Below are positions 7,989 through 63,900 of a stretch of DNA of 64,000 nucleotides, one piece after another. Both the position numbers and the translations under genes were made by a program. The DNA lies in NCBI GenBank assembly GCA_963924555.1, contig OZ004594.1, positions 6,541,563-6,605,562 of the forward strand, read 5' to 3'. The notes under the pieces are model-generated. The model saw only the letters and a list, made by a program, of their open reading frames with translations, was not told the DNA's origin and made no database searches. The first letter of the stretch is position 1, and the number at the start of each line of letters is the position of its first letter. Source of the stretch: Crambe crambe. Its lineage: Eukaryota; Porifera; Demospongiae; Poecilosclerida; Crambeidae.

Positions 7989-10733
7989 AAAAAATGTGTG
8001 CAGTAATCCTGTGCATCAATCTCCAGTTATCATTGTCCTATCATCATTAATTTTGGTTGCCTAAGGCATTCAACAATATCATATATACACATAGCAGAGA
8101 ATACATACCTGTGAAAGTATATGGTATACTCTCAGAACATGATCCATTGTTGAAGGTTAAAGAACCTCTTAATGAAAAAGAGTTGGCATCTTGAAAGTCG
8201 ATCAGTTGAGATGTATTAAAAGTGAACCTCTTGGCAGTATCATTAATGAACATTTCATTAATTAGTCGTCCAGATACAGATAGAGAACCAGTTAAGGCAA
8301 CAGTATTTCTATTCAGTAAGAAATCATCCACAACCTAATCAGAAAATAATAGAAGTACATAAATGCAACTTGCCTCCATTCTACCATATAGTGCTCTATT
8401 TTTGAGGCACTAATATTTCGAGAATAGCCATTTCTAAATTATTTCATCTTCAAGGATTACTAAAATTTGAAACCCCGCCTATAAAATGAAAATAATTGTA
8501 GCGCATTCACATAGAACTGCATGCTTTTGCAGCTTCCCTTGATAGTAGCTGCTGTCTCACTCTGAGAATTTGCCAGTGTAGTGCAGGCTATACTTCTCTT
8601 CTTCCTAGCTATTCACCCTTTTTTTTTTTGACGAAAATCTAGTGTATGGCCCCTCTGGTGGTAGATCCCTGCTTTAACATGATAGAGACTTTCGAACTGT
8701 CAGTGACATTGTACCACTAGGATCTGGTAGTGGAAGATTTGTACGTAGGTTCCTCTGAAGGATTTTTAAAGCTAAAATAACGACAGAGAGACATGACAGC
8801 TGTACTGTACTACAGTTTATGCATTGCACATGTGCGTACATAACTAATCATTCGAGGGCACTTTTTTTGTTTTTAGAGCAAAATCCACAAAAACCTCAAA
8901 AATAAAGTGCCTTGAAAATAAAGCACTATACGGTATTAGCTATAATGTATAAAACTTATATGAAGTTGAACTTATCAACCTAGCTTTAACTGCTGGACTT
9001 ATTGATTAAAAAAGGACCGTGATTTGAGTAGGCTGTCCCTTGTGACCTGGTGCCTGACTTTCCAGTTTGATGAACTGATAGCTAGTATGTCGCATAATTA
9101 TGTTCAATCATTTTATCCTGATAAATGAATCGTAAGATAAAATGACCGCCAGCTATTCTGAAGTACATGCACTGCTTAACCATTCATGGAGAAAAAATTT
9201 AATGTCCTCTGTAGCATTACCTTCCATCCTAAGGATACCATTAATCCAGTAGTGTCATACATGTAGGAGAGGGAAGGTCCTTGAGTAAATAAATCTGGGT
9301 AAACAAAATATGAAGTATGTAATATTGCTATTGTATGTATCACTTTTATACAACCAAACAATCAAACAAACAACAAACAACAATATTACTAGCAAAATGC
9401 AGAGTGATGTATAATAGGAATTCTATACAAATTTTACTGACATTGCACGAATGTCTAAATACAATTGTAGAATCCATTATAGTCAAGGTGTTTAGACTAT
9501 GCCATAGGAACTAAAATTTGAAACTAACGAACTTAACACTAGGCAAGCCTATAAAAGGAGATTGACAGACAGACGTTCAGAGTCAAATCTCCAAAGAAAT
9601 CATCTCTTAAATCTTTTTGCTAAAAGCTAAACAGTAGCTATACTAAGGCTCTAACGCTACAAAAAGAATGATGTTGATGTTACCAGCAAAGTCTGGCAAT
9701 CCCTATGCCTTGGTGCATAAAATAGGGTCACTGAAGTAGCTATAAGAGATCAAGTACCAGCATGCAGCAGTAGGGAAGGTTTTTAGCACCACAATGGGTG
9801 TGACAACTTTATGTGAAGAATTTCCTAATAATTGTTACCCAGCTTGTCTTTCCTCTGCAAATAGCTAGCTCCTCAAGGTGAATTTGGTTCTCTCAGCATT
9901 GTCTCATCACATTATTGTCATATCTATGCTAAAATAGTTGCTACAGCTAGTACTTCGAAATGCACATGTTTTCTAGGCATGAATCAAAGTGCTGCAAAGT
10001 GAAAAAAATTCCTGCTAGTTGACCAATCAGATTTGGTGTTTCAATACAAGTATATGTGCATGACTGTGCAGTCATGTGATTGACCTTCTTAAAAACATTT
10101 ATACCTACTCAATATTGTAGTGGCTATTACCTAACAGATAGTACTATCTAAGTACGGATGGCACGGATCACCCCATTGGTATTTTCTTTCATAACTACAG
10201 AATATACTTCCCTCCTACATTCAGCACTAGTCTGGTTATGGATCAAGCCTTGATGCAACAGTATCAGAGAGTGCGGTAGCACTCTCTATGTAGGGATGAC
10301 TCGGACGGCCGCGCGCGCCACCTATAGACTAATACAAAAGTGAAATTCTAGTTCCCCAACTTAGACCTAACAAAAGCTACTGTGAATGATTATCCAGCCT
10401 ACTAGAGCTTACTACAATGTGCAGACCAAGTTTCAGGACCAGGCAGCTTACCGTTTCAGAAATACGGCAAGCAGGTAAATCGCTGGATTCTTCTTCTTCT
10501 CTATTATTATTCTTCTTAGACAACTATATCTCTCGAACCACTCAAGCTACAGCTATGATTTCTGGATAAATCCACTCCAAATTCTACCAACTACGATCCT
10601 TTCTACTCGTTGCCTCGTAAGAGTCGATGAAAAAGGAGACACTACGGAGCACTAATTCAATTAGGAAGTCTTTTCATCCAATATTTATTACTGTTGCTAG
10701 CTAGTCTAGCCTTTGTGATAAAATTAATTGATA

Positions 10734-10771
<38 letters not shown>

Positions 10772-13700
10772 AGGAAGCCATCTTTTCTATAATACGCATG
10801 CGCATGTATTTGATATCCAATTATTCGAAATTATAATATTACTCAGCTATCTCTAGCTAGCTAGCTAACTAGATAGCTAATGGACTACACTATCGACTCG
10901 GGGATTTTAGATTCACCAATCCATCTACCGGTAGACTCTATTTCAGCATCTTCGACCTCCAAGTATAGCTCAACAATAACACAACACCGTTTGACACGTT
11001 GATAATCATCGGGCTGGTATGCTATTGGAGAACTATTCTTCTTTCATCTGTCCCTGCATACACATAGAAGAATGAACTCTATACATAGCTAAAACCATAA
11101 AAGAGAGGGGAAAAAAAGACCAGGAACAAGTAAGGGAAAAAGCATTTCGTGAAATGAAAAAAGATGTAGGGATGACCACTGCTCAAAAAAGTAAGGAAAC
11201 AAGAAGAATGGAAATGGGATCAATCTTTGTTCTGTATATCCAGCCAACAATCCCTACATATACGTACATTACTACACTATAATCTGAAGCTACCCGACGT
11301 ATATGTAGGGATTGTTGGCTGGATATACAGAACAAAGATTGATCCCATTTCCATCCTTCTTGTTTCCTTACTTTTTTGAGCAGTGGTCATCCCTACATCT
11401 TTTTTCATTTCACGAAATGCTTTTTCCCTTACTTGTAATAAGTAAAGGCCATCTTATTATAAACTGTATAGCATATAAGTTTTCACTTTAGCTCATACAA
11501 TATTATGATGAGCCTCCAATGAACTACATAGCATAAACTTTGACTTGGATAGCAGGATCACAACATCCAGTTGCCTGTAATAAAATAGTAGAGCATTACA
11601 TCAAAAAAGGTGATGAACAAATAAAGGAAAAATATTTATTCTGAATAAAAAAGAAAAGTAGCATAGGCGTAGGAACCAGGGGGGCTGAGGGGGCTATAGC
11701 CCCCCCCCCCCCAATATTTCTAGCTAATCAGTACAGTTAGCTATACAATACTTCGAATTTTTATGATGGTGCAAATAAAAAATCTAGCCTCAAAGAAGTA
11801 GTTGAAATTTTGCTTCATGCTCCACGTGGGAAGAGGTACATCCTCCTCCCGCACCCCCCCCCCCTTGCCGTGGCCTAACAGCCATGCAGTCCACTACAAA
11901 GTTCAAAATCTAGCCCCCCCAAAGTTAAATTGCTTCCTACGCCTATGAGTAGGGATGGCTGTGTGCAGTCCAAAAAGTTCAGCAACAAGAGAGTAAACTA
12001 AGAGCTACTTCACTCTTTATATCTCATCTTGGCCTGTCATGGGAGTGAAGTAGCTCGTAGCTTGGTAATATTGGTGATGGGTAAGGGGTTACTTGACTGA
12101 AGTTCATTCACACAGCCATCCCTACTTTTCTTTTTTATTTGGAATGATAATTATAGGTGTTGCTATAGAATGTGTGTAGTTTTTTTTTTCAAGTGAAATA
12201 CTTTAATGAGATGTGGAATTGGAGGCTGGGAAATGGTACAGATTTATGCCTAGAACACAGCCATAGTGTGGCCTAGTTAGCTCGCGTAATTATTATCATT
12301 TAATAATACAATCAACTTTAGCATCGGTCTGCAGCTGCAACTTCTCCTGCATGTTAAGATAAATGCTACATGAAGCTTTGAAGGTAATTTTCAGTCATTG
12401 CTAAGAAAATATATGTATAAGCTGTGATAGTCGCTTCCAGCACTATGCCTCAGCACTTTGATCCTGAGATAAAAGCTACTATTATTATAGCAGCAATGTT
12501 ATTTTGAACTTTTAACTATAAAAAGGTGTGCAGTATTGTTCCAGATACCTTCCTATACTCACACTTTCCTAAAAGTGTAGCATTTACATCCATCAGCCCA
12601 TAATAGTAGCTAGTTATGTATACTCCTATAATTGCAGCGAGCGAGCTGACTCTCAGGTCATGACTCATTAAAATTGTAATATAATATATCTAGGTCTACA
12701 CTCCAAAATGCCCCAGGCTTACGTAAGGTACATACATACCTGTCCCGAATTAGCTGCATGTGTTTAGTAGTGCTGCATGGGTGCATAATGGCATGCTCCA
12801 ATTATAATCAAGCTAGATTGTTTTCTACAGCCTGGCTTATCTAAGTGGATTGTATAGGCGCTTGGCTTATCTAAGTGCCTGTGGTAAGTTTTTACAGCTT
12901 TCTATGCATGGAGCTTCCCGACTTACATGACTCTTGTCTCTGACAGCAATATCAAGCACTGGAGCCTATCAGCTGTTTACTTGCTTACTGTCGGAATGCT
13001 GTACATTATTGCTATAGTAGTAGTTGTAGAGGCTCTAGGTACTTTGTTACATATAAACTCAACAGCAAAATCTTCTAAAGAGTTGTAGCACTAACTTGCT
13101 TGCTCGCTCACTGTCAAAATTAATGTTGCACATTGCACTAGTTATAGAATGCATTTGCTGCTATCATCAGTATGTACATAAAAGAGTATACCTGATGGAA
13201 TTGTTATGCTATGATCTTGAAGTGGAGGTGATGGGACAGAGAATGCAGTAGTAGTTGATCCACTCAGAGAATACATGTTTTGTTCACAAAAGTTCTGTGG
13301 TGGACAAGTTATAGTCCTAGAATTGCGATCTCCAGTACAGTTGAGTGATGCATTATTGTTATCTGTTATGATGAATGAGTCCACACACTGCCTTCCTCTC
13401 TCATCCATGTTTATATTCACACTGAGGTCTGAGAGTGGACGCTCACTTGATGGGTCATTGGCACTGAAACTCCAAGTAGCACCTGTATAGATCGATATTA
13501 TTATTATATAGACATAGCTTTGCTGAATAGAGCAATCTAATTGGTCAGTTGCAGGGCACTATACCCTCATGGAGGACACCATGGAGGGCACTAGTCCTTG
13601 CTCTCAGGGCATAGGTTTAGTGCCAAGGCAACAATATTTCATTTCCACTAATGTGATTGGTTAGTCCTTCCTAGTTACCCTGGCCATTTTTACTAAACTA

Positions 13701-23614: not shown

Positions 23615-23639
23615 TACTTAATTAAGACTAGTGCACTAT

Positions 23640-28014: not shown

Positions 28015-28320
28015 CTAAGAGATGTTTAGTGCACTATGAGTATACATGCATGGGTTCATGGGTTTTCATATTTTATAGCTGTAAGATGCTAAACTGAGGT
28101 GAGTTAAGCAGAAACTAATATAATGTTCACTGTAGAGTATGTGAGGTATGAACTAAGCATCTATAAAGATGTCCACTGCACATAACATTAGCGAGGCTGG
28201 AATAATTCCCCATTTATACAGTTCTAGGGGTACTGTTGTGGCAGGGGTATCTGGTTGATGGCTTCCTTCCCTGTTGCCTTTTTTATCTGAAGGGGGTATG
28301 TTGTATATGTTATAGTTAAA

Positions 28321-29345
28321 TAAGGGAAAAAGCATTTCGTGAGATGAAAAAAGATGTAGGGATGACCACTGCTCAAAAAAGTAAGGAAACAAGAAGGATG
28401 GAAATGGGATCAATCTTTGTTCTGTATATCCAGCCAACAATCCCTACATATACGTCGGGTAGCTTCAGATTATAATGTAGTAATGTACGTATATGTAGGG
28501 ATTGTTGGCTGGATATACAGAACAAAGATTGATCCCATTTCCATCCTTCTTGTTTCCTTACTTTTTTGAGCAGTGGTCATCCCTACATTTTTTTCATTTC
28601 ACGAAATGCTTTTTCCCTTACTTGTTCCTGGTCTTTTTTCCTCTCTTTTATGGTTTTAGCTATGTATAGAGTTCATTCTTCTATGTGTAGCTATGCAGGG
28701 ACAGATAGTTCTCCAGCATACCAGCCATCATTATCTACGAATCAAGGTGTTGTGTACTTGGAGGTCGAAGATGGTCTACCGTGGTGAATCTAAATCCCCG
28801 AGTCGATACAGTAGTCTATCATCATCTAGAGCTAGCTACATGTAGTTCCTAGCTAGCTAGCTAGCTAGAGACAGTTGAGTAATATTATAATTTCGAATAA
28901 TTGGATATGCGTATGCGTATTATGGCTTCCTAATTGAATTAGTCGAGTGCTGTGCTCCGTAGTGTCTCCTTTTTCATCGACTCTTTCGAGGATCAACGAG
29001 TAGAAAAGATCGTAGTTCGTAGAATTTGGAGTGAATTTATCCAGAAATCATAGCTGTAGCTTGAGTGGTTCGAGAGATATGGTTGTCTAAGAAGAATAAT
29101 AATAATATAGAAGAAGAAGAATCCAGCGATTTACCTGCTTGCCGTATTTCTGAAACGGTAAGCTCCCTGGTCCTGAAACTTGGTCTGCACATTGTAGTAG
29201 GCTCTAGTAGGCTGGATAATCATTCACAGTAGCTTTTGTTAGGTCTAAGTGGGGGAACTAGAATTTCACTTTTGTATTAGTCTATAGGCGGCGCGCGCGG
29301 CCGTCCGAGTCATCCCTACATAGAGAGTGCTACCGCACTCTCTGA
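28321..29345 (-). mobile_element. R1-b, near-complete hairpin-ended element
   Basis: Its giant hairpin is at 28321-28626 and its small 5' hairpin ends at 29345 (…GCACTCTCTGA on the plus strand). The sub-terminal ATGTAGGGATGAC is at 28354. The outermost six bases differ from the usual ACTTGT. It lies between the TM and tail exons of the second receptor. Confidence 0.8.
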
Positions 29346-32288: not shown

Positions 32289-32349
32289 TATAGCCAAGAC
32301 TTTATTTTTAATTCATTCAAGATTTCTTCGTTCTGAAAAGTGATGTAGG

Positions 32350-35596: not shown

Positions 35597-35839
35597 TCAG
35601 AGAGTGCGGTAGCACTCTCTATGTAGGGATGACTCGGACGGCCGTGCGCGCCGCCTATAGACTAATACAAAAGTGAAATTCTAGTTCCCCCACTTAGACC
35701 TAACAAAAGCTACTGTGAATGATTATCCAGCCTACTAGAGCCTACTACAATGTGCAGACCAAGTTTCAGGACCAGGCAGCTTACCATTTCAGAAATACGG
35801 CAAGCAGGTAAATCGCTGGATTCTTCTTCTTCTCTATTA

Positions 35840-36638
35840 TCAGAGAGTGCGGTAGCACTCTCTATGTAGGGTTAGCACGGAATGGGCGTGGCTTCTCTCA
35901 TTAGAACAATACAAACTAGACTCTCTGTATCTCTTCTATTCTTGGTACAGGCTCAACTAAACTTCTTACATCTGGAAAACAATTCAGAAGATGATGATAT
36001 GACCGCTCAAACTCCTCCAGAACAGCGTCAACGATCGGCACCAGCCGCCGCCTAAATCTAAAATTTTCATGATTCGTTCATCATCAGATTCATTTTCTTT
36101 GATGGCTGTAACTCCATGATCCTTTCACATATGACAATGAAATTCATATCCACTTGTGCACACAATGTGCTTTTACCATCGTTATATCCACAGTTTCCCT
36201 TCAAAATGATCACTCATATCGAACGAATTTTCATTATAACTATGTCAGCCATTTTAAAATGAATCATTTGTCATGCGCACGCGTCTGTCACTATCACGTG
36301 CACGTAGCAAGTACCAATTAATTTTTACTTGAAAAAAATATTCAAAGGTCATACAAAAAGTAAACAAACAAGTGAAAGGAAAAAAATTATGCTAAATAAA
36401 AAGGCCATGTAGGGTTTGTCAAAATAATGCTGCCTTCAATAATAATCCCTACATCACTGCCTAAACCAAGCAGAACACTATTATACTGACATGAACAATT
36501 AAAGCAGCTTGGTGGGAGGCAGTGATGTAGGGATTATCATTGAAGGCAGCATTATTTTGATTTTTGTTGACAGAAACTGTTAAAGTACAGGCTAACCCTA
36601 CATGGCCTTTAATTTAGCATAATTTGTTTTCCTTTCAC

Positions 36639-36642
<4 letters not shown>
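35840..36642 (+). mobile_element. R3, hairpin-ended element nested in R1-c
   Basis: It begins TCAGAGAGTGCGGTAGCACTCTCT, then ATGTAGGGTTAGC at 35864-35876. The 3' end is a 275-bp hairpin (36368-36642) with ACAAGT and ACTTGT tips. Its outer arm holds GCTAACCCTACAT (36591-36603), the exact inverse of the 5' motif. The body has a CTGTAACTCCATGATCC phrase like that in R2. It is non-coding. Confidence 0.85.

Positions 36643-36676
<34 letters not shown>
36642..36676 (+). repeat. (TTA)n microsatellite
   Basis: About eleven TTA units between R3 and element E1. It is probably an expansion of the short ATTATT tract of R1. Confidence 0.9.
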
Positions 36677-36677
<1 letters not shown>

Positions 36678-37127
36678 CCGTGTAGAACTTAGCGCGAAAT
36701 AGCGCACAATCTAACGATAATCGCGTTATTACGCATATCAACTCCTTTCAACTCCTTTTATCGCGCTACAAAATACGCGCAATGCATCAACGCAAAAATG
36801 TGCGAAATCGTGAAAATCTGTACACGTACGCGCAGTGGCTTTACATTTTTTTGGTGGATTTTATTTTTGTTGATATGGCCTTGGCTAATCTCTTTACCAT
36901 GAGCGCCAAAAATATTTCTTTCACCAAATTATTGGACTAAACTTCGCGAAAATGCGCTATTCGAGCGTAGCGTGCACTGCGCATTAATGTGTGCTAAACG
37001 GAGCTCTTACGCGAATTTACGTGGCCATAATAACGCGTAATCCGCGACTTTTTACGTGAGATGATGTTACTACGCATCGATTTTGACAGCGAATTAACGC
37101 GCTATATCGCGCGAAGTTCGATACGGG
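36677..37127 (+). mobile_element. E1, CpG-rich MITE with CCCGTGTAGAACTT ends
   Basis: A 451-bp element with imperfect inverted ends (CCCGTGTAGAACTTAGCGCG and CCCGTATCGAACTTCGCGCG). It is exceptionally dense in GCG, CGC and ACG for this AT-rich window. A second full copy is inverted at 38247-38706. The middle, with the phrase TTTGGTGGATTTTATTTTTG, is well conserved between the copies. Confidence 0.85.
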
Positions 37128-38246
37128 TTTTTATTATTATTAAACCATATCTCTCGAACCACTCAAGCTACAGCTATGATTTCTGGATAAATCCACTCCA
37201 AATTCTACGAACTACGATCTTTTCTACTCGTTGATCCTCTAAAGAGTCAATAAAAAAGGAGATACTACGGAGCACAGCACTTGACTAATTCAATTAGGAA
37301 GCCATCTTTTCTATAACACGCATGCGCATGTATTTGATATCCAATTAATATTACTCAGCTGTCTCTAGCTAACTAGCTAGCTCAAGATAATGATGATAGA
37401 CTACTGTTTCGACTCGGGGATTTAGATTCATGACGGTAGACTCTATTTCAGCATCTTCGACCTCCAAGTATAGCTCAACAATAACACAACACCTTGACTC
37501 GTTGATAATGATGGGGCTGGTATGCTGGAGAACTATTGGAGAACTATTCTTCTTTCATCTGTCCCTGCATACACATAGAAGAATGAACTCTATACATAGC
37601 TAAAACCATAAAAGAGAGGAAAAAAAAACCAGGAACAAGTAAGGGGAAAAGCATTTCGTGAAATGAAAAAGGATGTAGGGATGACCAATGCTCAAAAAAG
37701 TAAGGAAACAAGAAGGATGGAAATGGCATCAATCTTTGTTCTGTATATCCAGCCAACAATCCCTACATATACATCGGGTAGCTTCAGATTATAGTGTAGT
37801 AATGTACATATAATATGTAGGGATTGTTGGCTGGATATACAGAAAAAGACTGATCCCATTTCCATCCTTCTTGTTTCCTTACTTTTTTGAGCAGTGGTCA
37901 TCCCTACATCTTTTTTTCATTTCATGAAATGCTACTTGTTATAAGTGTACTAGTGTATCTGACCGATCAAATTGCTAGATTGGGTCAAGCTCATAGTCTA
38001 TAAAATTAAGATCACACTTATTGTTTGTTAATTTTGTTTTCAAGGGCAACACATGGTGAGTAGAAAAGTGATATTGGTTTTAATTTTGTATAGAAAAAGA
38101 TTAATAAGCAAATGAACATTATTTCCAGTCATGCCTGCGCAAGGGGTGGAATTTGGACTAGAGTCAGAGTAACTACTATGACTATCGCAAAATGAAATGT
38201 ACATTGCACACTTATAGTGTGTGTATAGGGACAACTTAGTGTATAC

Positions 38247-43471: not shown

Positions 43472-43513
<42 letters not shown>

Positions 43514-44822: not shown

Positions 44823-45038
44823 GGGTTCAGAGAAGATACTCTAATGCTAACTGGGAATGCACAAAGTCAGTTAACAACCTGAATAGCTAGATATTGAAAG
44901 TCACTGTTGGGGCTATATAATCATAAGTGAGGGAGGAGCACATTGAAATGACCACTGGCTGCTTGCTCGCCCAACTAATGCTATACGAGCATCTCTAGTT
45001 AATGCATGGACAAGCATAAAAATAAAGTTCACCAGTCG

Positions 45039-51000: not shown

Positions 51001-54000
51001 ATTGGATCAGTGAATTCATAATATAAAGGACATCATGCAGTTCAATTATTAGCTAGATAGGAGATTTATGATTTAATACTAGAGGTTCTTGTTCTCTCTT
51101 ATATACGTATACTGATGTGCTAGAGGACAAAGCTATGCGTAACAAGTCTGTTTCTCCCACTAACCTGCCAGTGGTCTTTGCAGGTGTGTTGCATTGGTCC
51201 TTGTGCTGCTATGTACTTGATGATCTGACCTGTGGTGTATATCTCCATCTGTCATCACATGACCAGTACACAAAACAAGTCACACATGTGAATGTCTGCA
51301 CTTACATTGACAAAATTAGCATTGATGTAGTCTGGACCTTCCATCAGATGCACTCGAGTTTCATCATCTAAAGAATCCCAAATTGACAGGAACTGAAGAA
51401 TTAGGAGGAGAAGAGGGTGAGGGAAGGAATTTCTCCTTCTTTTTCCCTTCCTCCTCTCTCCCTGATTGCTCTATCTCATAGTAAGCTAGTTTCTTACAAG
51501 CTGAAATGTCACGATATCTGTTTCTGCCCAGGTTTTGAGGGAGCTTGCTTGCAATGGCTGCCATGCCTGGCTCCCTTCTGTATAATCTCTGCAACAAAGA
51601 AAGGGAAGCATTGAGTGATTTTCAGTCCCATATGCTAGCATAAATGATAGTGAACACCTCAATGTGAATTCCTTGCAATGCTACTTATAAAAAAACAACA
51701 AAAAAACAACAAAAAAAAAACATCAACGAAGTTTTGATATCTCTGTAAAATCTGCAGTTTTATTATGGTTTGAAATCGAATTATCATGTACACTTTAAAT
51801 GTCTTTATAAGTGTTTCGATATTAAAATAAACAAAAGCGAAAAAAACACTTTTGTATCAATATTTTAACTAATTTTAGCACTCACATCGAAATGGAGGAG
51901 TCCCTTTCCAGAGGAGAGGGTAACCTTGAGGGAGGTAAGGGACTCTCTCAGCATGTGTCCCGGATCATTGTCCATTGTAGGAGCTGAACTTCGCAGTATC
52001 GGGTTCACTCGCTGGAGGTTACGAGGCTTCACTATCATCACCAGTTCACTGGGACCAAAATGAGAGTACATAAAGTTCAGGGTTTCAGCCCAAGTAGTTA
52101 TCCCCTCCATGATCCCAAGTCTTTTAAAGGTATAACCCTTTACCTGCTGGATTTGATCAACAAAATTATCTGTTCGTGTGTTTTTTCAGTGATGGCTCTG
52201 TTGTTGATGTAGAGGACTTGGTCTCCTTCCTCCACAGGGGGATTACAAGTAGCAGCCTGCAAGCATCATCAAACAAGATTAGGTCAAAGAAAGTGGTTTA
52301 ATGGTTCCAGCAGCTGGTCATATGGCCAACCACTTGGCAAAGTTGGGTGGCCATCAAAAGCTATAAAACATGAGAATGAAATTTTAACAGTCAGAAATTA
52401 GACATTGTTGCCAATGCACATGTTTTTTTTATTATTGCAAGAACGCTGCAAACTCCAATGCAGCTTTTCCACTTCTAAGCTACACTCTGAAAGTCAAACT
52501 GTTTACTGCATATCTTTTGAATGCTATGGAAGCCGAGAAGGGCACTTTTTTTCAAGTTGAGAGTCGGTGAGTGGCGGCGCCAGCGACAGTCGGCGACAGT
52601 CGGCGACAGGCGGCGACAGTTGGCGACAGGCGGCGACAGGCGGCGACAGTCGGCGACAGTTGGCGACAGGCGGAGAGTGGCAGAGAGTGGCAGTGCATGT
52701 TAGGAAGGTAAAGGGTCGGCAAAGACATTAGTTATTATTACTATTTTGGCAGCTTAACCATCAATTCACTTCTAAAAATTTGCATTTTCTACATAATAAT
52801 AATAATAATAATAATGTAGAGGATATGATAACCGGGTGAACTACTGGCACTCCTTCCGAGACCTAGCTGCTTTACTACTCCTGACTCTTTATGGCAACCC
52901 TCCCCCTTGTTTTGTATTTCATCGTTATTTATTGTAAATAGCTAAATCATTATTTTCCTTGTAGCCCTTGGGCTTTTCATTTTGTTTATTTCATTTTGTC
53001 ACTTTGTTCATTACTTTAATTGGTTTGTTCTCTGCGCACTCGCCCCAGAATTTCCTAGCCACTATAGTGTTGCCATAGTAAGGAAACAAAAAGGGATCAA
53101 TCTTTATTCTGTATAACCAGCCAACAATCCCTACATTATATGTACATTACTACACTATAATGTGAAGCTACCCGACATATATGTAGGGATTGTTGACTGG
53201 ATATACAGAACAAAAATTGATCCCATTCCGTCCTTCTTGTTTCCTTACTTTTTTGAGCAGTGCATCTTATTTCATTTCACGAAATGCTTTTTCCCTTACT
53301 TGTTCCTGGTCTTTTTTCCTCTCTTTTATGATTTTAGCTATGTATAGAGTTCATTCTTCTATGACAGATGAAAGAAGAATAGGTTCTCCAATAGCATACC
53401 AGCCCAATCATTATCAACGAGTCAAGGTGTTGTGTTATTGTTGAGCTATACTTGGAGGTCGAAGACGCTGAAATAGAGCCTACTGGTAGATAGATTGGTG
53501 AATCTAAATCCCCGAGTTGATACAGTAGTCTATCATCATTATCTAGAGCTAGCTAGCTAGCTAGCTAGAGCTTGAGACAGCTGAGTAATATTATTATAAT
53601 TAATAACTGGATATCAAATACATGCGCATGCGTATTATAGAAAAGATGGCTACTAATTGAATTAGTCGAGTGCTGTGCTCCGTAGTGTCTCCTTTTTCAT
53701 CGACTCTTTCGAGGATCGAGTAGAAAAGATCGTAGTTCGTAGAATTTAGAGTGGATTTATCCAGAAATCATAGCTGTAGCTTGAGTGGTTCGAGAGATAT
53801 GGTTGTCTAAGAATAATACTAATACTAATAATAATAATAGAGAAGAAGAAGAATCCAGCGATTTACTTGGTTGCCGTATTTCTGAAACGGTATAAGCTCC
53901 CTGGTCCTGAAACCTGGTCTGCACATTGTAGGCTCTAGTAGGCTGGATAATCATTCACAGTAGCTTTTGTTAGGTCTAAGTGGGGGAACTAGAATTTCAC

Positions 54001-55105
54001 TTTTGTATTAGTCTATAGGCGGTGCGCGCGGCCGTCCGAGTCATCCCTACATAGAGAGTGCTACCGCACTCTCTTTTTTGAGAAAACTGAGTGAGTTGAT
54101 GGCAAACCAGTAATTTTTTGGCAGTGAATAACTTAGGAGAGAACTTAGCCGACCCTTTACCTTCCTAGCATGTCGCCGCCACTCTCCTCCAGTCGCCGCT
54201 TGTCGCCGCCTGTCGCCGACAGTCGCTGACCTGTCGCCGCCTGTCGCTGACCTGTCGCCGCATGTCGCCGACAGTCGCTGACCTGTCGCCGACAGTCGCC
54301 GACAATCGCAGACCTGTCGCCGCCAGTCGCCGACAATCGCAGACCTGTCGCCGCCTGTCGCTGACCTGTCGCCGCCTGTCGCCGAAGTCGCTGACCCGTC
54401 GCCGAAGTCGCTGACCCGTCGCCGACAATCGCCGACAGTCGCCGACAGTCGCCAACAGTCGCTGACCTGTCGCCGACAGTCGCTAACCTGTCGCCGACCT
54501 GTTGCCGCCTGTCGCCGACAGTCGCCGCCTACCATTCTCTGCCTGTCGCCGCCTGTCGCCGCCACTCACCGACTCTCAAAAGAAAAGAAGTGCCCTTCTC
54601 GGCTTCCATAGAATGCCCTCTGTAAACAGTAAGATACCTTTACTTTTATAGTTGGTATAAAGTACACATTCTTGTTATTGCAGTGCACCAACGTGTATTT
54701 CCTATTCACTCCAACCCCCTCAAAGATGAATGATGGGTTTTAAACTTGATCCCATCACTGGCATGCTTAACATCTCACCGGTGAATCAGGAGTGATTTTG
54801 GTCACTATCACTGGCATTCTTTCATCAGCTCCACCCTGCAATTGAGGCAATAACTACAATTACATATTAAACTTTTTATGTTAGCAGCAAATGCTTAAAT
54901 TTAGCAAAACCATAAAGGAATTTTTCTCCAAGAAAAAATCCTACTACACTCAATACTGTTCAGTTACCTTGACGATGAAGCCGTACCTCCCTTGTTGGTC
55001 TGGCTGCATTCTGATGAGGAGTAGACCCTCAGCTGCAAGGTCATCCATACTCACTTGACTTATCCGCTCCTCAAATGCATTCTGCTCATCGTAGTACTCT
55101 GTGGG
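45039..55105 (-). CDS. PTPN3/PTPN4-like tyrosine phosphatase, PDZ-PTP part, 13 exons
   Basis: Exons (minus): 55105-54968, 54835-54779, 52256-52144, 52048-51886, 51588-51498, 51367-51306, 51248-51165, 50873-50685, 50447-50393, 50302-50209, 50070-49935, 45371-45326 and 45112-45039. The sum is 1302 nt = 433 residues plus TGA, phases all consistent. The PDZ domain has [10 protein letters not shown] as binding loop and [20 protein letters not shown]. The linker [20 protein letters not shown] leads into [16 protein letters not shown] (phosphotyrosine loop), [22 protein letters not shown] (acid loop), HCNAGIGRTG (catalytic Cys; Asn where Ser is usual), QTPYQ (Q loop) and a short tail. It should dephosphorylate tyrosines at the membrane cortex. 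The FERM half expected upstream is not visible, so the start codon is unknown. Two introns carry large insertions. Confidence 0.93.
45452..45649 (-). repeat. 3' LTR of gypsy-2
   Basis: 198 bp, plus-strand TG…CA ends. Differs from the other LTR by C/T changes near each end (TATACTTATAG vs TATACCTATAG, and ACACACAC vs ACATACAC). Confidence 0.95.
45650..45658 (-). other. polypurine tract of gypsy-2
   Basis: Minus strand GGGGAGGAG directly before the 3' LTR, the usual plus-strand primer. Confidence 0.85.
45685..48215 (-). pseudogene. gypsy-2 pol: RT, RNase H, integrase, two frameshifts in RT
   Basis: Three frames are needed. The gag-pro frame stops at 48187 inside RT. RT continues in another frame ([20 protein letters not shown] … AYQQLL) down to about 47910. 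The original frame then resumes with [10 protein letters not shown] and stays open to 45685. It holds RNase H ([17 protein letters not shown]), the H2C2 finger (HPGIARMK…CLPCLR) and the DDE integrase ([22 protein letters not shown]). The two shifts cancel, so only about 300 nt of RT is out of frame. No env frame follows. The copy is probably unable to make its own RT, unless these are assembly errors. Confidence 0.9.
48187..49704 (-). CDS. gypsy-2 gag-protease and start of RT
   Basis: ATG at 49704 ([16 protein letters not shown]) is preferred over an upstream in-frame ATG at 49767 because that one lies in the LTR. Gag is followed by two CCHC knuckles at about residues 217-250 ([28 protein letters not shown]). 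The aspartic protease has DTGA at about 323. The frame ends in the first block of RT, where a shift brings TGA. About 505 codons. It is related to gypsy-1 in layout but clearly a different family in sequence. Confidence 0.92.
   Translation of the reverse strand: MATTVVAATYGSLPEFDVENESVKSYTARAKIYFRANSIPDGIQASVLLSCIGGKTYDILESLLAPAPLDEATLDTLVLTLEEHFQPKPNVIAQRFTFHQRNQKPTESIAEYLAALRKLAIDCDFGAKKVLEATLRDRLVGGIRNTALQKKLLSTKNLTFKDACDVAKSVEAAEANAKAIGNAHANTTTTTSVHTVTKYKQKRDKPSTVSQLDQKKQQPCYHCGRRNHLPSACKFTDATCHSCGKKGHIAPVCRSRPKQPQVPKKRPQFGSHQPKPTHYVGIDATPDVEEEELYLFVLGSKSSREVKPIRCKVLVDEVPVWMEIDTGAEVSVMPEAVYLSLFPEKQLVKSSVILKTYTGEVIPVVGEIPVQVQHNSQSTQTMLVVVSTDGPVLLGRDLLGKIKLDWQQLNQVRSEEQPTLSAVLDQHKSVFKDELGTVRAHRAKLHVCPSTTPKFFKPRPIPFAIKDIIGAELDKMEKAGILEKISHSEWAAPIVTVPMHLPYLR
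49698..49715 (-). other. tRNA primer binding site of gypsy-2
   Basis: Minus strand TGGCGACGAGGATGG begins one base after the LTR end. The ATG of gag overlaps this segment. Confidence 0.85.
49717..49914 (-). repeat. 5' LTR of gypsy-2
   Basis: 198 bp, near-identical to 45452-45649. As the 5' LTR of a sense-oriented insertion it would drive transcripts into the PTP 3' exons. Confidence 0.95.
52498..54630. mobile_element. fold-back-like element with 10-bp tandem arrays in its arms
   Basis: The outer ends ACTGTTTAC… (52498) and …GTAAACAGT (54630) are inverted, followed in both by CTATGGAAGCCGAGAAGGGC. Each arm then carries tandem copies of a 10-bp unit (CGGCGACAGT and variants), about 120 bp at 52570-52690 and about 420 bp at 54170-54590. 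Inside these is AAGGTAAAGGGTCGGC, then a weaker inverted stretch. R1-d has inserted in the centre. Long arms with internal tandem repeats are the hallmark of fold-back elements. It is in a PTP intron, between the two parts of the PDZ domain. Confidence 0.8.
53077..54074 (-). mobile_element. R1-d, hairpin-ended element nested in the fold-back element
   Basis: The 5' hairpin is at 54052-54074 and the ATGTAGGGATGAC inverse just inside it. The R1 middle is intact. The giant hairpin lacks most of its outer arm (truncated at AGTAAGGAAACAAA). Confidence 0.8.
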
Positions 55106-57330: not shown

Positions 57331-58205
57331 TTCATAATTATTGTTTTCATAATCATTTTCTTTTTCCGTGACTATAAGGTATTGCAGAGAATGACAATTA
57401 GTTCACAATTGACCATGTGGAAATATCAGACAACTGCCTATTGCTGTGAGTTGAAGCTATTTTTATACCACATGCAGCTACTGAATTACATCACAGAGGT
57501 GTAGCAATGTTTTGTGTATTGTTGTCTCACTAGTCTAGTCAGGCTCTCCCCCATAATACCTGTCCTGAGCGGTATGAAGAATCTGGGAGGTTTCGGTAAA
57601 CAAAATTATAGAACTGAAGTTATGCAAACTGTATTAATGGACCATACAGTTGTAGCTACCGGACTCTCCCTGAAGCAAGACCATCAGGATGTGAAAGATG
57701 TGTTGGCTTATATTGATCAGGCAAATGTCCGACCTGCCATGGCCGTACCAGCCGTAGCAGTGCCTCCGGCCATGATGTACTCTTCCTTATATTTTAGATC
57801 ATAAACATGACTGAGATTAGAAAACTGATCACATAAACTGAGCTCATGCATTTGCTATTAAGGAAAATAAAATATGTTTGGGAGAAGAAAACACGGTATA
57901 TTTTTTGTAGGATACGCGAGGATACAGCACATTTCATTATAAACTTACCATGCCCTTGTGTATCCTATGAATTTCTTCAAGGTTTCAGGCTAGGATCATT
58001 GACTGTGATTAGCTATCATTAGCTTAATGTTGTTGCGCAGAATTAATTATTAGTGTTTTGTGTTGATAGTCTTGTTTGTTATCAATATAACATTATTCAA
58101 GTTATTTCAGTTTGTAGTGACATAGCTAACTACAATACAAAAAGAATAAACTGTATGGACTGAGAATATTAATGTGTCCCAATTTATAGCTATAGCTGAA
58201 CTAGT
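57331..58205. other. 5' flank of the fibrinogen-related gene
   Basis: The plus frame 57514-57804 (…DQANVRPAMAVPAVAVPPAM) has no family I recognise and no splice or promoter support. Otherwise nothing is seen. Confidence 0.35.
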
Positions 58206-58260
58206 TGGCGAGCGAAGCGAGCCACTTTCTGGTCATGTCAACGGGAGCTCGAGATATATA
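58206..58260 (-). repeat. dispersed 55-bp motif, inverted copy
   Basis: GGCGAGCGAAGCGAGCC then CTTTCTGGTCATGTCAACGG and GAGCTCGAGATATAT; matches 16197-16255 inverted. It directly precedes R4. Confidence 0.6.
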
Positions 58261-58272
58261 TATATATACAAT

Positions 58273-60343
58273 ACAAGTAAAGGAAAAAATATTTGAAAAA
58301 AATGAAAGTTGATGTAGGGATGACAAAAATAGTGTACAAAAAAAAAAAGAAACAAGGAAAGAAATTGCGAAAAGAAAATGTTTGATTTATTATCATCCCT
58401 ACATCAAGCCAAGGAATTATTAGCTATACTTTGACTATTCAGCTAAGTAGCTATCATAAGATGTTCGATGATTACCATATGAAACAATAAAAAATATATA
58501 ATGGTACAACTATAGTATTATGTACTATAGCTGAAACCACCTTCTAAAATGTGCTAAGAGTGACTGCTAATAGATTTTCATCCTTGAAAGAGGACAGCCT
58601 CTCTATTAGAAGGTTTCTATTATGGTAGATAGCTAGTCCACTGCTATACCATTGATAGGCTTGATGTAGGGATGATAATAAATCAAACATTTTCTTTTCG
58701 CAATTTCTTTCCTTGTTTCTTTTTTTTTTGTACACTATTTTTGTCATCCCTACATCAACTTTCAATTTTTTGAAATGTTTTTTCCTTTACTTGTTTTCTT
58801 TTTTTTTTTTTTGTAATTAATTCATAGCTCCCCTGCCTACGCATATACGCCCTTGGTATGAAATCAAAAGGTGGGATAGATACATATTAATTTTTTTATA
58901 GAGAACTATACTTGCTCGTCCCCAGGTTTGTGGAGGCGGTCAATAGAGCACTCTTTGCACATGCGCCAAAAATCCGATTAGGTGGATTTGTAATCTACTC
59001 TCAGTAATCTTCTGTGACACATGATGCAATATGCTGAATCAGCACTGCGGTAGACAGCTATGTATTTCTTCTCGGACAGCTATGTGTCTTTTACATCCTA
59101 TCTCAGCTGGGACAACCCCATAGTACTGAACAAGGATAGCCTGAGGCTGCATGTGATTATAATCTCCTCTGGCTTAAATTATTATATTTTTTATATTATA
59201 ATTTATACATACTATCTGTGGTTTTTTTGTATAATTATAGCTATGTATAATGTTCTTTGTTCCATCTCACAAATGTGGGTATGTCACACTAGTGATTGCA
59301 CCCGGATTTGACTTCATCCTTGCATAATCTCATCCATTCAGCTCTTGTTCCAAGACCAGTTAACTAGTCATCCCTACATCACCTTCATTTATTAGAATAA
59401 ATACTTGTTTCTTTCTTCTTTTTAAAAAAAAATTCTTTTTGCAGGAGGATATTAGAGCTGTAGCTATCTACTCATTATAGCTGATTTTGTGATATCTTTT
59501 TGTAGGAAGTAGTTAGCACTTTTTTTCCTTAAGTTATAACTGTTTTTAATATTAATTCTATGTTATGCTGAATAAAGTTCATAGAGTGGTAGGGGAAGGA
59601 GGCAAGGTGGTCTGTAGCTGTTCTTGTTTCATGGAATTTAATTTCATAGCTCTTGTGGTAAGGGATTAAAATCTTCTAACTAGCTGAGTTCATAGATAAA
59701 AGAAGGTGAAGGGATAGAGAGCTACGATCAGCCTGTCTTTCGTTCTAAATAATGCACAACTCACTGGGCTCGAGAAAGCTTACCATTCAAAATTTACATG
59801 CTGTCGTTACAGCTCAGCTAATAGCTAGCCAGGATAACTTACCTTAGAGCTGACTATTATTCTGTTCTATCTATGCTCGAAATGGCTTTTTGGTTCGATG
59901 AGATCGAGAGTCATAGCAACTATCGTTTATTACGCATGCGCGTTATGTTCAATTTCTTTGTTGTATAGTCCCTATACTAAGAGAGCGGCTTTTTTTCTGA
60001 GTGAACTAGAGGCTAAATCGATGCCACACTGCACTGGTCGGGGTAAAAAGCTACATATTCATATACAGAACATAGCCGTAATGCGGCCCAATTTTTCTCC
60101 AGATCGTGCCATTATTATTATGATGATTAAGAACAAGAAAATCATGAAAAAATGCGCTTTTATTATTCCTTCGTGTTGAGTCTTTCAGCCTCCAAAATTC
60201 TCCTGCATGATAAAAATGTGCATAAGAGACAGGGTAAGCAGTCATAGCAGCTACAACTTACTGTTTTCTGAGAAAATCCAACTTCATTTTGTATTAGTCC
60301 TATGGAGGGTCATAGGTCATCCCTACATAGAGAGCGCTACCGT
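58273..60343 (-). mobile_element. R4, about 2 kb hairpin-ended element
   Basis: The giant hairpin is at 58273-58794 (522 bp, ACAAGT/ACTTGT tips, central non-paired part longer than in R1). On the minus strand the 5' side reads GGTAGCGCTCTCTATGTAGGGATGAC, ending at 60343, with the first hairpin arm lost. The inverse pair ATGTAGGGATGAC is at 58312-58324 and 60316-60328. GACTAATACAAAATGAAG matches the R1 body. The longer interior has only short frames and no recognised enzyme. Confidence 0.7.
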
Positions 60344-60359
60344 ATGGCAATATGGCAAA

Positions 60360-60450
60360 TAAGTCGTAGTAAATAAGCACCCCGGGTTACTGTTACCCCG
60401 GGGTAAACCGAAACCCGGCAGTTACCCCGGGGTAACTGTAACCCCAGTCT
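60360..60450. repeat. GC-rich short inverted repeats
   Basis: GTTACCCCGGGGTAA-type palindromes repeat three times in about 80 bp, unlike the surrounding AT-rich DNA. Confidence 0.55.
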
Positions 60451-60953
60451 AATCGCCAGTGTTGGCGAGGCCCATAGGGCTAATACAACTTTAATTGCAC
60501 AGACACGCACTTTTATCACTCACCAGTTTACGGAAGTATCCGGAGAGAGTATTTGTCGTCAAATTCACTTCTTTTAGTTGTAGTGCCGAGATTTTCCCTT
60601 TACAGAAGGCATAAAGCTGCCTGTAGCTGCACCTTGCACGGTACTAACTCCACTATAATTTTAATAGCAAATGCAGCTGCACGCGCGAAGCAGCTGCTAC
60701 ATTTTTGTGGTCTTTGATGTTGTGATAATCAATCGTGTTGTGGGCTGTGACATTTGTATTTCACACTTCCTGCCACTACTTCGAAGGTATGTAGAGCTCC
60801 TCCTATTATAAGTGGCATGTTATGTGTAATAAAATTAACTGTCCATTAGTGCATGTCTGTAATACAGCCTTTGCCTTTGAATGCTACTCATAGCTTGAAG
60901 CTATACTGTTCATTGAATATACAACAAACAAACAAACACATACTCAAATTTAC

Positions 60954-63900
60954 TTTGGTTGGTCTAGTACCAATGAAGGACTGTTCAATTCTGGATGAAT
61001 CTGGTAGACGGAAGATAACAGGGATCCTGACACCAATCTCTTCTGCCTCAAACTGCTCCCTCAGGTGAGTACGGAGAGCCTGAAACTTCTATAAAATCAA
61101 TGTATGACTACTTAGTACATTGTGTACTTATTAACACAGCAACATGGTAAGGTGTTGATGGCAGTGCACATTAATTAGAATAACAGATGTGCATTATTCC
61201 ACCTGGGTATCACAGTATTAGAAGCACATGCATCAGGAAAAAAAGGCAATAGTGGCCATCAAGTATTAAAGTTCCGATAAGATACTGCTATGTTCATACC
61301 ACAAACCTCTTTCCTCTCTCTCTCTTTCTTTACTCTTGAAGCCTATAGTAATGAAAAGCATTCCTTGATAAGGGCTGAGAGGGGTCAATCTATTGGTCTT
61401 TGACTGTTAGTACCAGTCAGGTGTACACAACTTATAATCTCCACCCCCAAAAATGACAACTTTCTTTCATTGAACATTTATAATTTCAAAGCAGCATTGC
61501 ATACTGACCTTCTCTTGATCAATCCTTAGGGTGTCTGAAAAATCGCTATCTTGTTGATTACATAACTCTCTCCAGGCACTCAAGTCAGACTGCTGGATAA
61601 GTGGAGTAGGATCTGCACTACTTGGAGGTGAAAGAGGATCTGGCTGACTTGGAGGAGGATCAGCAAGACTTGGAGGATCTGCACGACTTGGAGATGCATC
61701 AGCATCAATAATCACAGGATTACTCTGATGTGTGCATCAGTACAAAAATATATAACTAACTTAACTCCATAGCTGCTTAATGTTACCCTGCTAGTGATCT
61801 TTACATCTATCAAATCCTCAGCATCCTCATCACTACTACTTGTAACAATACACTGCATGAAAAATTCAAAAGTTGATAATTTCACATTCAAGGCATAAAG
61901 AGATTCATGCATCAGTTAACAAAATTTATAGCTGATATAGCATCGAGCACCTCAAGGATCCTCCTTTGGTCTCACAGTTTAAGCAAATACTAATGCCCCA
62001 AAGTGCAACACCTATAAAATTCCTTCACACCTTTATAATCAGAGTGCAGTAGCACTCTCTATGTAGGCTTGACACGCAAAACACCCACGCTCATTAATAA
62101 TAATATAATAATCTTCTTCTTGACAGCCATAACTCCAGACTGCTTCATCCTATATCTATGATCTTGGTACCATATTGAAGCTCTACACCTGATCTAAGGA
62201 ATGGTCTTGTTCAAATTGAAGTAAAGCTCAAGTCCTAGCTGTCAATTGCCGTCCGAGTGCCTTCATGGATGTTTGACAGCCATAACTCCTGACTGCTTCA
62301 TCCTATATCTACGATCTTGGTACCATCTTGAAGCTCTACACCTCAGGTGAGGAATGGTATTGTTCAAATTGAAGTAAAGCTCAAGTCCTAACTGTCAATT
62401 GCTGTTCGAGTGCCTTCGTGGACGACTCAAATTCTCGAATGCTTCGTAGACAGCACAGTTAGTTTATACACTTCGTAGATGCTACGTAGACAACATTAGA
62501 ATGCTAGAACGCTTCGTAGACAGCAATATACACTGAGAAAAAACTGTCTTGCTGAGTTGTGATGGGCGTGGTAAGCTTATTTGGTAAAGGGTCGTTCTTG
62601 ACATCCTTAGCCACGTCCCTTGAAAAAAAGTATGCAAACAAGTGAGAGTAAAAACATTTCTTCTAAATGAAAGAGTGATGTAGGCTTGAGTACATGACTA
62701 TAAAAAGTACGGAAACAAGGTGCTGGCTATGTACTTCATAAGCTCTACAGAATTGACAAACCCTACAATTGACATAAATCCTACATCGCTGCAAGGTGTA
62801 GCCAAAGCAGCAGCGATGTAGGGTTTATGTCAATTGTAGGGTTTGTCAATTCTGTAGAGCTTATGAAGTACATAGCCAGCACCTTGTTTCCGTACTTTTT
62901 ATAGTCATGTACTCAAGCCTACATCACTCTTTCATTTAGAAGAAATATTTTTACTCTCACTTGTTTAACTAGATACTGTAACAGCCCTCAAGTTATTAAT
63001 CCCTTTTTCTCTTCTGAGTACAGGTTGTACACTATTATGTATCAACAATACCTTTTTTTGAGTTTGCATCAAATAAAGTGCCCCTTTACGGTTAATGACA
63101 TCTTCCCCATCGAGATCTTGCTTCTTTGAGATCGAAAGATTATTGTCCATGCATTCCAAAACCGACCACGTATCAAAATCTTCAATATTGCTGAAACTTT
63201 GCCTGAGTGTATTCTTAACATCAAGCACAGACATTGAACGTCTGAACTGCGGAGTCAGAATTCTTCCCTTGTTTTTTAATAATGATATGTGCTTCCCTCT
63301 AGGCAAATTGGGAGTGAATCGTTGGAGCAAAACAACTTGTATATTAGTAGGCCGCCCTTGAGAGATGGCAGCTTTCTTCTTTTTTTGTGCAGAGCTAACA
63401 CAACATTCACTTGTAGGATCAAAAGATCGTGGACGTTTCTTAGGTCCAGGAGTTGAAGATGGAAACATAGTACTTAAAGCTTTAGCTTCAGTTTCGTTAG
63501 GTTTGGCTAATTTTCGAGTTATATTCAATAGATTGGCAGCCGGAGATTTGGTCTAAAGAAATATCAGTAGCTAGAATGAATAGCATGCTGGAATGAACAC
63601 TACACTTGAATCGTTATACCTTCTCTTCAGGAGTTCCTAGCTTTACTGCTTTTACAATGGATTTATCTGGGATAGCACCTTCAATCTTGTCAACAAATTC
63701 ACCACCCCACTCTTCATCTTTGACTTGAAAAATCAACTCGCTAACACTGGCACTCTTTAAGAGGTCAGCAAACACCTCCCCCACCGCAACTCTTAACGAT
63801 TTCAGATCCTCCTTACCATTTTCACTCTTAAAGATCACCTTCCTCTTGCTCTCGCCTATACAAACTAAAACTTTTTTTCCATCATGAACCTGTACATAAA

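Follow-up and report, generated by a model that had tools for sequence, protein, structure and literature searches.

To our knowledge, it is still unsettled for Helitrons how a round of transposition ends and how the second strand is made. Several described systems resemble the elements presented here, which were identified in a stretch of 64,000 nucleotides from the sponge Crambe crambe (the window); the following comparisons draw on excerpts of the reports cited. For Helitron1 and Helraiser (PMC4778049, PMC5876387), a 5' TC, insertion at A/T, an HUH Rep joined to a PIF1 helicase and a small hairpin near the 3' end have been described, as here, the hairpin lying 11 nt from the end in Helraiser and 12 or 16 nt from it in family R1 of the window. 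The Crambe elements differ in ending with CTTG or CA instead of the canonical CTRR, and in additionally carrying inverted motifs near the ends (ATIRs), a 5' hairpin and a long terminal palindrome. Helitron2 (Bao and Jurka 2013, PMC3627910) shares hairpins at both ends, ATIRs of 8-15 bp (13 bp here), a RepHel protein and a 3' ATIR that immediately precedes the 3' hairpin, and compensatory changes were noted there in two related elements. However, its 5' ATIR lies 0-2 bp from the end as part of the hairpin, whereas here it stands 22-24 nt inside, after a separate hairpin; moreover, the target here is A|T, and the 3' ATIR lies inside a long palindrome with two orientations.

Helentrons, HINEs and DINE-1 (Thomas 2014, PMC4067079) likewise have subterminal inverted repeats, a 3' stem-loop, an internal microsatellite, non-autonomous partners and accessory OTU proteins, but they insert at T|T instead of A|T, and their 3' palindrome measures 5-10 bp. 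They also contain an endonuclease domain; no such domain of the AP type, which is the mark of Helentrons, was found in the Crambe protein P0001. Fusarium FoHeli1/2 (PMC5148889) start with TCAG and have hairpins at both ends, a 12-bp inverted repeat and copies with several 5' ends; in contrast, they end with ATTTT, their repeated 5' pieces measure 31-85 nt as compared to 222-242 bp here, and a long palindrome is not mentioned in the excerpt. The terminal repeats of the parvovirus AAV (PMC11575299) combine a Rep nuclease with a terminal palindrome containing inner hairpins and occurring in flip and flop forms. There, however, a virus has palindromes at both ends, whereas the Crambe palindrome lies at a single end of a transposon in the chromosome, and only a resemblance, not kinship, is implied.

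The window elements R1 to R4 are short relatives of Helitron-type transposons. With a probability of roughly 0.8, they belong, together with the AAGTAGG family, to a group of Helitron-superfamily transposons with family-specific ATIRs and a 3' end processed as a hairpin. A sequence-only reading of the window had placed the four elements correctly (Table 1; the R4 limits are approximate) and had proposed that their paired motifs are recognition sites for family-specific enzymes; the observation was confirmed, and the interpretation is partly supported. The motif ATGTAGGNNTNNC matched 21 times in the window, where 0.50 matches were expected and 0 of 100 shuffles reached 21. A fifth family, of the AAGTAGGGATGGC type, is also present.

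Table 1. Elements and their parts in the window (position 1 is its first nucleotide).
Feature	Position	Strand	Remarks
R1 element, complete non-autonomous Helitron-type copy	10264..11435	+	A|TC...CTTG|T; inserted into an element of the fifth family (AAGTAGGGATGGC type)
R1 5' terminal hairpin	10264..10287	+	TCAGAGAGTGCGGTAGCACTCTCT
R1 5' ATIR	10288..10300	+	ATGTAGGGATGAC
R1 3' palindrome, left arm	11127..11265	+	inverted copy of the 3' end
R1 palindrome loop	11266..11296	+	'ref' (Y) orientation
R1 3' palindrome, right arm	11297..11435	+	true 3' end; ATIR inverse 11386-11398
R1 copy, 3' tip altered	28318..29345	-	CCCTTATTT; loop in 'ref' orientation
R1 copy with nested R3	35597..37938	+	palindrome 37636-37938; loop inverted relative to copy at 10264
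R3 element	35840..36641	+	nested at A|T of the R1 internal (TTA)n tract; ATIRs 35864-35876, 36591-36603 (ATGTAGGGTTAGC)
R3 3' palindrome	36370..36640	+	left arm 36370-36462, shortened; right arm 36517-36640
R1 copy, 5' tip altered	53090..54076	-	3' palindrome truncated (inner part 53090-53227)
R4 element	58274..60342	-	5' tip damaged; ATIR 60316-60328; palindrome 58274-58793
R2 element	62039..62963	+	ATIRs 62061-62073 (ATGTAGGCTTGAC) and 62912-62924 (inverse of ATGTAGGCTTGAG)
R2 3' palindrome	62639..62963	+	arms 62639-62792 and 62810-62963

The elements extend from TC to CTTG, or to CA if the final four bases are left out, and lie between a host A and T. The base preceding TCAGAG was A in 53 of 53 cases, and at the one nested insertion, R3 in R1, the flanks rejoin by eye to the R1 sequence CTCTATTA|TTATT without target duplication. 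The 5' hairpin stem was fully paired in 43 of 47 R1-type ends, with one stem position occurring as T-A (40), C-G (3), A-T (2) or unpaired (2). As had been claimed, the 5' motif is preceded by 24 nt in R1 and R3 and by 22 nt in R2, and its inverse lies inside the 3' palindromes, as measured on the paired arms of R2 and three R1 copies.

Longer relatives with an ORF between such ends were identified elsewhere in the genome for the R4 and R1 types. They encode an HUH-Rep/PIF1-helicase protein of about 2,400 amino acids, in which the R4 lineage also has OTU domains. The full-length element to which R4 is related (L071/L072) has the 5' hairpin followed by ATGTAGGGATGAC, an ORF of 2371 aa with Helitron_like_N (7e-29), PIF1 (3e-24) and two OTU stretches, and a palindrome with 160-nt, 100% complementary arms, terminating at CTTG|T. 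The union of a two-tyrosine HUH Rep and a PIF1-type helicase in one protein is the mark of the Helitron superfamily; the HUH histidines, Tyr1162/Tyr1166 and the Walker residues are invariant in nine aligned sequences (P0001 and eight relatives), and the best-scoring solved chain is Helraiser. In a helicase-only tree the proteins form their own clade (support 100/99), its deep placement between Helitron1 and Helitron2 being unsure, with long branches. For the R1 type, a Rep at C11:5913912 is flanked by same-strand R1 5' and 3' ends about 11.7 kb apart, ends and Rep having been matched separately. In total, 18 whole-length RepHel matches share 99-100% identity.

The Reps of the R1 and R4 types, with 80% identity over 1062 aa, have the motif in common; those of a third lineage, at 63-64% identity, go with AAG-type 5' ends. 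The proposed family-specific enzyme finds its support in these three Rep lineages, with ends read in one or two copies of each. Among the 100 of 152 variant 5' ends listed, no full-length partner was seen by eye beside R2- or R3-type ends; an R2-like 5' end (CCTGAC) occurs 4 kb before a Rep, but an R4-type 5' end stands between. Among the full-length AAG candidates, no 3' motif was found in L074, and the palindrome in L078, a candidate 3' end, may instead be that of a neighbour on the opposite strand. In L012 (C10:6224182), the Rep turned out to be a different protein, to which the nearby AAG ends (L081/L082) were not assigned. No element ends were seen around C5:9470770 (L079, L080) and no 5' end in L083. 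The 5' pattern had no match in genome_contigs or viral_contigs, where 46 and 3 stretches, respectively, matched the peptide pattern and none encoded a relative of P0001.

Genome-wide, ATGTAGGGATGAC gave 2060+2070 matches, compared to 8+0 for the reversed control, and the two motifs mark the two ends of a single element type. Between families they also change together, with an end-to-end match for R1/R4, R2, R3 and the AAG family. In three family contrasts with R1, seven positions were altered to the same base at both ends (on simple assumptions, the chances multiply to 2.4e-9) and two at the 3' end only. When paired by coordinates, 22 of the 47 AAG ends tested, 14 of 28 R2 ends and 3 of 7 R3 ends had a partner of their own family; among the main-class 5' ends as a whole, this held in only 39 of 82 tested, GATGAC-class 3' ends falling outside the pairing pattern used. 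The expected correlation of variable bases across subfamilies holds between families but not for point variants: the matching change was absent from the right arm in all three variants in which this arm was readable (CTTGGC, CCTGAC and TTTGAC), the TTTGAC variant having one changed base in common with the left arm and not the right, and a fourth, GTTGCC (L048), with the left arm alone readable, gave no match. The one AAG-to-R2 cross pair proved to involve the left arm of an R2 element lying nearby on the opposite strand (L047). The covariation is predicted equally by protein reading and by strand pairing of the two motifs.

In the families that were read, the palindromes, about 240-790 bp long, occupy precisely the 3' end. 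Their inner border recreates CTTG|T in all 43 left arms whose CTTG is readable; among the 46 examined, 3 lack it. In the window, arms of 157 nt (R2) and of 140 and 108 nt (two R1 copies) are 99% complementary, and those of a third R1 copy (72 nt) 94%. The different inner arm that had been ascribed to R3 (GGGTTTGTC) goes in the window copy with a left arm of 93 nt as compared to 124 nt, so that the difference is a deletion. Both arms read GCTAAC in seven R3 palindromes that pair up, by a search needing an exact word in each arm that left about a dozen more R3-type matches unpaired.

The arms evolve together. Within-copy distances were 1.5, 2.4 and 1.3% for R1 (16 copies), R2 (18) and R3 (8), compared to 2.5, 8.4 and 2.6% between copies, and 0 of 2000 permutations were as low in each family; the largest within-copy difference was 11%. 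Substitutions were the same in both arms 49 times, in one arm 62 times, and in both arms but different 0 times. With ties allowed, the partner arm was the nearest relative in 11 of 16 R1, 5 of 18 R2 and 5 of 8 R3 copies; it was strictly nearest in 3, 0 and 4, so part of the signal comes from subfamily structure. A first count of copy-private substitutions gave 8 in both arms and 34 in one, where about 0.01 in both arms would be expected per family for independent arms. The comparison of private with shared substitutions as a timing test of arm copying was strong when counted by cells but vanished by distinct events (both/one arm 22/37 versus 9/13, p = 0.80); with this equal symmetry, the data do not tie arm copying to transposition.

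The newer result is that the loop of the palindrome occurs in both orientations, for which the literature searched contained no earlier report in Helitrons, and which is not expected from plain rolling-circle copying. Genome-wide, R1 loops were found 271 times in one form and 393 times in the other (reversed controls 0). In samples, reference and inverted loops numbered 6 and 12 in R1 (18 of 21 assigned), 14 and 5 in R2 (19 of 20), 8 and 1 in R3 (9 of 10) and 2 and 1 in R4 (3 of 4). Both forms occur even among near-identical copies: between L072 and L084, flank and arm are identical at 370 of 371 positions, and the loops at 445 of 450 with one inverted, as compared to 256 of 415 directly. With both forms present, the tail is refolded or recombined, during element movement or afterwards. 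Where R1 palindromes follow one another at 580-900 bp on the same strand, their orientations are independent (same in 14 of 25, expected 0.52, among the 165 places listed of 664); in-place inversion also explains this. In an apparent segmental duplication on C5, five R1 palindromes are repeated 56,848 bp away with the form kept in 5 of 5 pairs.

From the resident copies, the following course of transposition can be proposed. The short copies would be mobilised by the proteins of full-length relatives, the Rep nicking one strand at A|TC on the 5' side and at CTTG|T or CA|T on the 3' side. The ATIRs would serve as family-specific recognition or end-pairing sites, and the small hairpins adjoining them would mark start and stop. 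The 3' palindrome would fold into a hairpin, its 3' tip paired with the inverted internal copy, and hairpin processing would copy one arm from the other and invert the loop in a share of events. Only tentatively, this processing may be a parvovirus-like rolling-hairpin step at one Helitron end, with the palindrome acting as a self-priming, terminally resolved hairpin. The CTTG 3'-OH freed by Rep would pair with the internal copy and prime second-strand synthesis; the extended strand would then present CTTG|T, as a second Rep site, at the border of the left arm, and a cut there with refilling would copy one arm from the other and leave the loop flipped or not. If so, the internal arm could also restore 3' ends lacking CTTG.

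The lineage suggests a possible link from rolling-circle transposons to rolling-hairpin replicons. As it offers near-identical RepHel copies, end motifs that accompany the enzyme lineage in the cases tested, and a two-orientation palindrome in hundreds of copies, end recognition and 3' processing become testable.

The main competitor, to which we give slightly less than even odds, is host recombination in place, by which ordinary rolling-circle transposition would be followed by inversion and homogenisation of the arms through crossing-over, gene conversion or cruciform resolution, without a role in transposition. Such processes are known to act on long inverted repeats, and the independent orientations of tandem neighbours and the copy-private substitutions present in both arms (8 or 22, depending on the count) agree with it. 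However, a chance inverted repeat needs neither to lie exactly at the 3' end nor to recreate CTTG|T at its inner border, and the palindromes of the apparent C5 duplication kept their form. It seems unlikely that the elements are a plain Helitron2- or HINE-like family whose palindrome is a functionless, chance tail-to-tail fusion inherited by all: such an origin would account for the T after the left arm, and Helitron2 and Helentrons have been described with ATIRs, hairpins at both ends and non-autonomous partners, but the loop inverts, and between R1 and R4 the outer arms have drifted apart to about 75% (a likeness that makes the earlier description of unrelated bodies too strong) while within-copy arms mostly agree within a few per cent, which argues that the palindrome is kept and not merely inherited. 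MITE-like cut-and-paste or IS200/IS605-like elements, which are also short with hairpins and inverted motifs, are a highly improbable identity and were rejected, given the RepHel ORF between the same ends and the insertion of the nested R3 at A|T without duplication.

In the families R1 to R4 and in the fifth family, designated the AAG family, the 3' end of the element is repeated in inverted orientation just upstream, which gives a palindrome of left arm, loop and right arm, the right arm being the true 3' end. The loop was identified in two orientations relative to the element, whose direction was set from the stretch of body adjoining the left arm: 6 one way and 12 the other for R1 (21 scored, 3 without assignment), 14 and 5 for R2 (20 scored, 1 without assignment), 8 and 1 for R3 (10 scored with locus L066 counted twice, 1 without assignment), and 2 and 1 for R4 (4 scored, 1 without assignment). 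In all 26 cases in which a 5' end of the same family was also available (13 R2, 6 R1, 5 R3, 2 R4), its strand, read by eye, matched the direction assigned to the element. Genome-wide, a word-pair search in which the two loop words are mutual reverse complements revealed 271 and 393 places for the two forms of the R1 loop, and 0 for the reversed controls. At loci L072 and L084, both of the first full-length lineage, flank and arm are identical at 370 of 371 bases, and the loops of about 450 nt reach 445 of 450 matching bases only after inversion of one of them; aligned directly, they match at 256 of 415. The R2 copies at L055 and L064 have bodies that are 99.6% identical across 447 bases, and their loops are opposite.

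R1 and R4 are about 75% similar in their outer arms. Between arms of the same copy, the mean distance was 1.5% against 2.5% across copies for R1 (16 copies), and 2.4% against 8.4% for R2 (18 copies) and 1.3% against 2.6% for R3 (8 copies), the palindromes of the latter two families being picked by exact arm words, which favours young copies. Distances were computed without the motif and everything outside it, and the observed value was reached by 0 of 2000 partner shuffles in each family. The own partner was the nearest arm, ties allowed, in 11 of 16 (R1), 5 of 18 (R2) and 5 of 8 (R3) copies, and the strictly nearest in 3, 0 and 4. Excluded from this count were the twice-fetched loci L007, L008, L105, L107 and L092, the duplicate L086, an overlapping reading of L066 and a weak match of L076 to R2; matches under about 85 nt or below 80% identity were dropped. 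An inward-facing second pair of ATGTAGGG-like motifs flanks the loop in the R1 to R4 palindromes of the window, and its sequence does not change in step with the variable bases specific to each family.

For AAV, PMC11575299 presents the flip and flop forms as evidence for rolling-hairpin replication and states that rolling-circle concatemers retain a single orientation. We infer that a Helitron copied solely via circles should keep its loop orientation constant; therefore, either the 3' hairpin would be processed in transposition, or the palindrome would be inverted in place by the host. Processing during transposition is favoured by the cut site, which is the end of the palindrome, and by the inner border of the left arm: of 46 left arms inspected, 43 have a readable CTTG, and CTTG|T is recreated at the border in all 43 (those of L046, L054 and L055 are without CTTG). 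Inversion in place is favoured by same-strand neighbours, whose forms are independent (14 of 25 pairs the same, against a fraction of 0.52 expected, counted from the 165 of 664 places listed, with 2 of the 25 pairs looking like one segmental duplication). The arm-substitution test favours neither, and processing of the 3' hairpin in transposition is placed slightly ahead of, or level with, recombination in place, and not more. These neighbours are R1 palindromes in same-strand tandem on contigs C1, C2, C3, C5 and C6, mostly 800-850 bp apart (the 25 pairs among the places listed); because this spacing is smaller than a whole R1 element, perhaps just the 3' half is repeated.

The motif excess is real, with 21 matches to ATGTAGGNNTNNC in the window against 0.50 expected, and 4130 exact matches to ATGTAGGGATGAC against 8 for the reversed word in the genome searched (eukaryotic, 143 Mb, 119 contigs); the coordinates given in the sequence-only reading were likewise recovered on re-analysis. 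Complete elements start with TCAGAG within a hairpin stretch of 24 nt (22 nt in R2 of the window), directly followed by the 13-bp motif. The 5' stem itself appears to be kept, since all eight pairs were formed in 43 of 47 ends of the 24-nt type, and one position was found as T-A, C-G and A-T. The 3' end is composed, in this order, of the inverse motif, a short hairpin, and CTTG or CA, after which comes a host T, and the host base 5' of the element was A in 53 of 53 cases. R3 is nested in R1 at the A|T of an internal TTA tract, without target duplication. Two discrete 3' ends, ...CA|T and ...CACTTG|T, lie four bases apart. CTTG was present, absent or changed in 8, 6 and 2 of the 16 right ends of R1, in 4, 13 and 2 of the 19 of R2, and in 1, 5 and 2 of the 8 of R3, and present in 3 of 3 of R4; an R2 copy, L085, has A after CA, the sole exception to the host T.

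Helitron2 is defined by ATIRs and hairpins at both ends (PMC3627910), and Helentrons and HINEs are described as having subterminal repeats as well as non-autonomous partners (PMC4067079). Copies with several 5' ends are described for Fusarium (PMC5148889), and the multiple 3' ends reported for maize are modelled there by nested insertion (PMC3288121). The present elements combine mixed features and differ in at least one defining trait from each of Helitron1, Helitron2 and Helentron. In the literature searched, which takes in a minority of subscription papers, no description of Helitrons whose terminal palindromes are long or can invert was found.

Compared to R1, the motif is changed at positions 8 and 9 at both ends and at 13 only at the 3' end in R2, at 9, 11 and 12 at both ends in R3, and at 2 and 12 at both ends and 11 only at the 3' end in the AAG family. 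The product of chances for these shared changes is 2.4e-9, with families taken as independent and R1 as reference; the proper sample is three contrasts, because copies inside one family are not independent events. Three point variants had a right arm that could be read, and none of them showed a matching change there. The proposal that the two motifs change together thus stands between families and not for point variants. The TTTGAC variant, seen in two copies that are apparently a single duplicated locus, does have one changed base in common with its left arm. When ends were paired by coordinates alone (same-strand 3' end within 3 kb of the 5' end), AAG 5' ends led to AAG 3' ends in 22 of 47 tested, R2 to R2 in 14 of 28 and R3 to R3 in 3 of 7, among the matches listed, which took in 43 of 152 variant and 47 of 1052 AAG 5' ends. 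Eight rare 5' point variants among these matches gave an R2 end for two and none for six; 3' ends of the GATGAC type lie outside the search patterns, so that a pairing with one would count as none. A single pairing of an AAG 5' end with an R2 arm was rejected, the arm belonging to an opposite-strand neighbour.

The 5' copy of the AAG family in the window reads AAGTACGGATGGC, and words of this family's type were identified genome-wide in 1052 exact 5' and 2267 3' matches. On C1, 15 of 77 AAG 5' units (100 of the 1052 matches listed) have 2 to 5 such ends in tandem, at spacings of 222-242 bp. Multi-headed elements were also seen at three fetched loci, besides the places on C1, and the insertion point lies in the TAA/TTA tract within the element itself. 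In the R1-type copy at L075/L076, the outer body is not resumed directly past the 3' end, as though copying had begun at the outer 5' end and stopped at the first 3' end.

Positions of elements, motif pairs and Rep matches (L, fetched loci; C, contigs of the genome)
Feature	Location	Motifs	Remark
Fifth-family element, AAGTAGGGATGGC type	window 10150-12127	10150-10162, 12115-12127	hosts R1 inserted at 10264
Inward-facing pair, example	window 11252-11310		
Inward-facing pair, example	window 36447-36532		
Multi-headed element	L060:2018-2500		
Multi-headed element	L075:232-520		
Multi-headed element	L077:213-490		
Rep, R4-type start	C6:4634951		ORF 2371 aa
Second lineage	C11:5913912		ORF 2461 aa
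Distinct Helitron-type Rep match	C6:3415048		L011
Distinct Helitron-type Rep match	C10:6224182		L012

PF14214 gave 67 matches genome-wide. The longer relative with an ORF between such ends, which had been sought, exists at one of these matches, on C6: in a single contiguous fetched stretch, a Rep is flanked by a 5' TCAGAG...ATGTAGGGATGAC and, at the 3' end, by a palindrome that ends in CTTG|T, and the ORF contains two OTU stretches besides the Rep and the PIF1 helicase. From the motif onward, its start is identical to that of R4 in the window across the about 54 nt compared. The second lineage is flanked on either side by ends of the R1 type (L075, L076), between which the sequence was read for the Rep domain only (L119); this domain is 84% identical to P0001, the RepHel protein of the full-length element in L071/L072. 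The third lineage has AAGTAGGGATGGC 5' ends in both copies inspected (L073, L077). With the first-lineage RepHel (1062 aa) as query, at least 18 whole-length matches at 99-100% were obtained, the R1-lineage RepHel being 80% and that of the third lineage, in at least 8 copies, 63-64% identical to it (43 of 213 candidates scored). Among matches bearing an organism name, those of Ephydatia muelleri are closest to the transposon protein, which suggests that the genome is perhaps that of a sponge. The genome also contains further Helitron-type Rep matches, distinct from those above.
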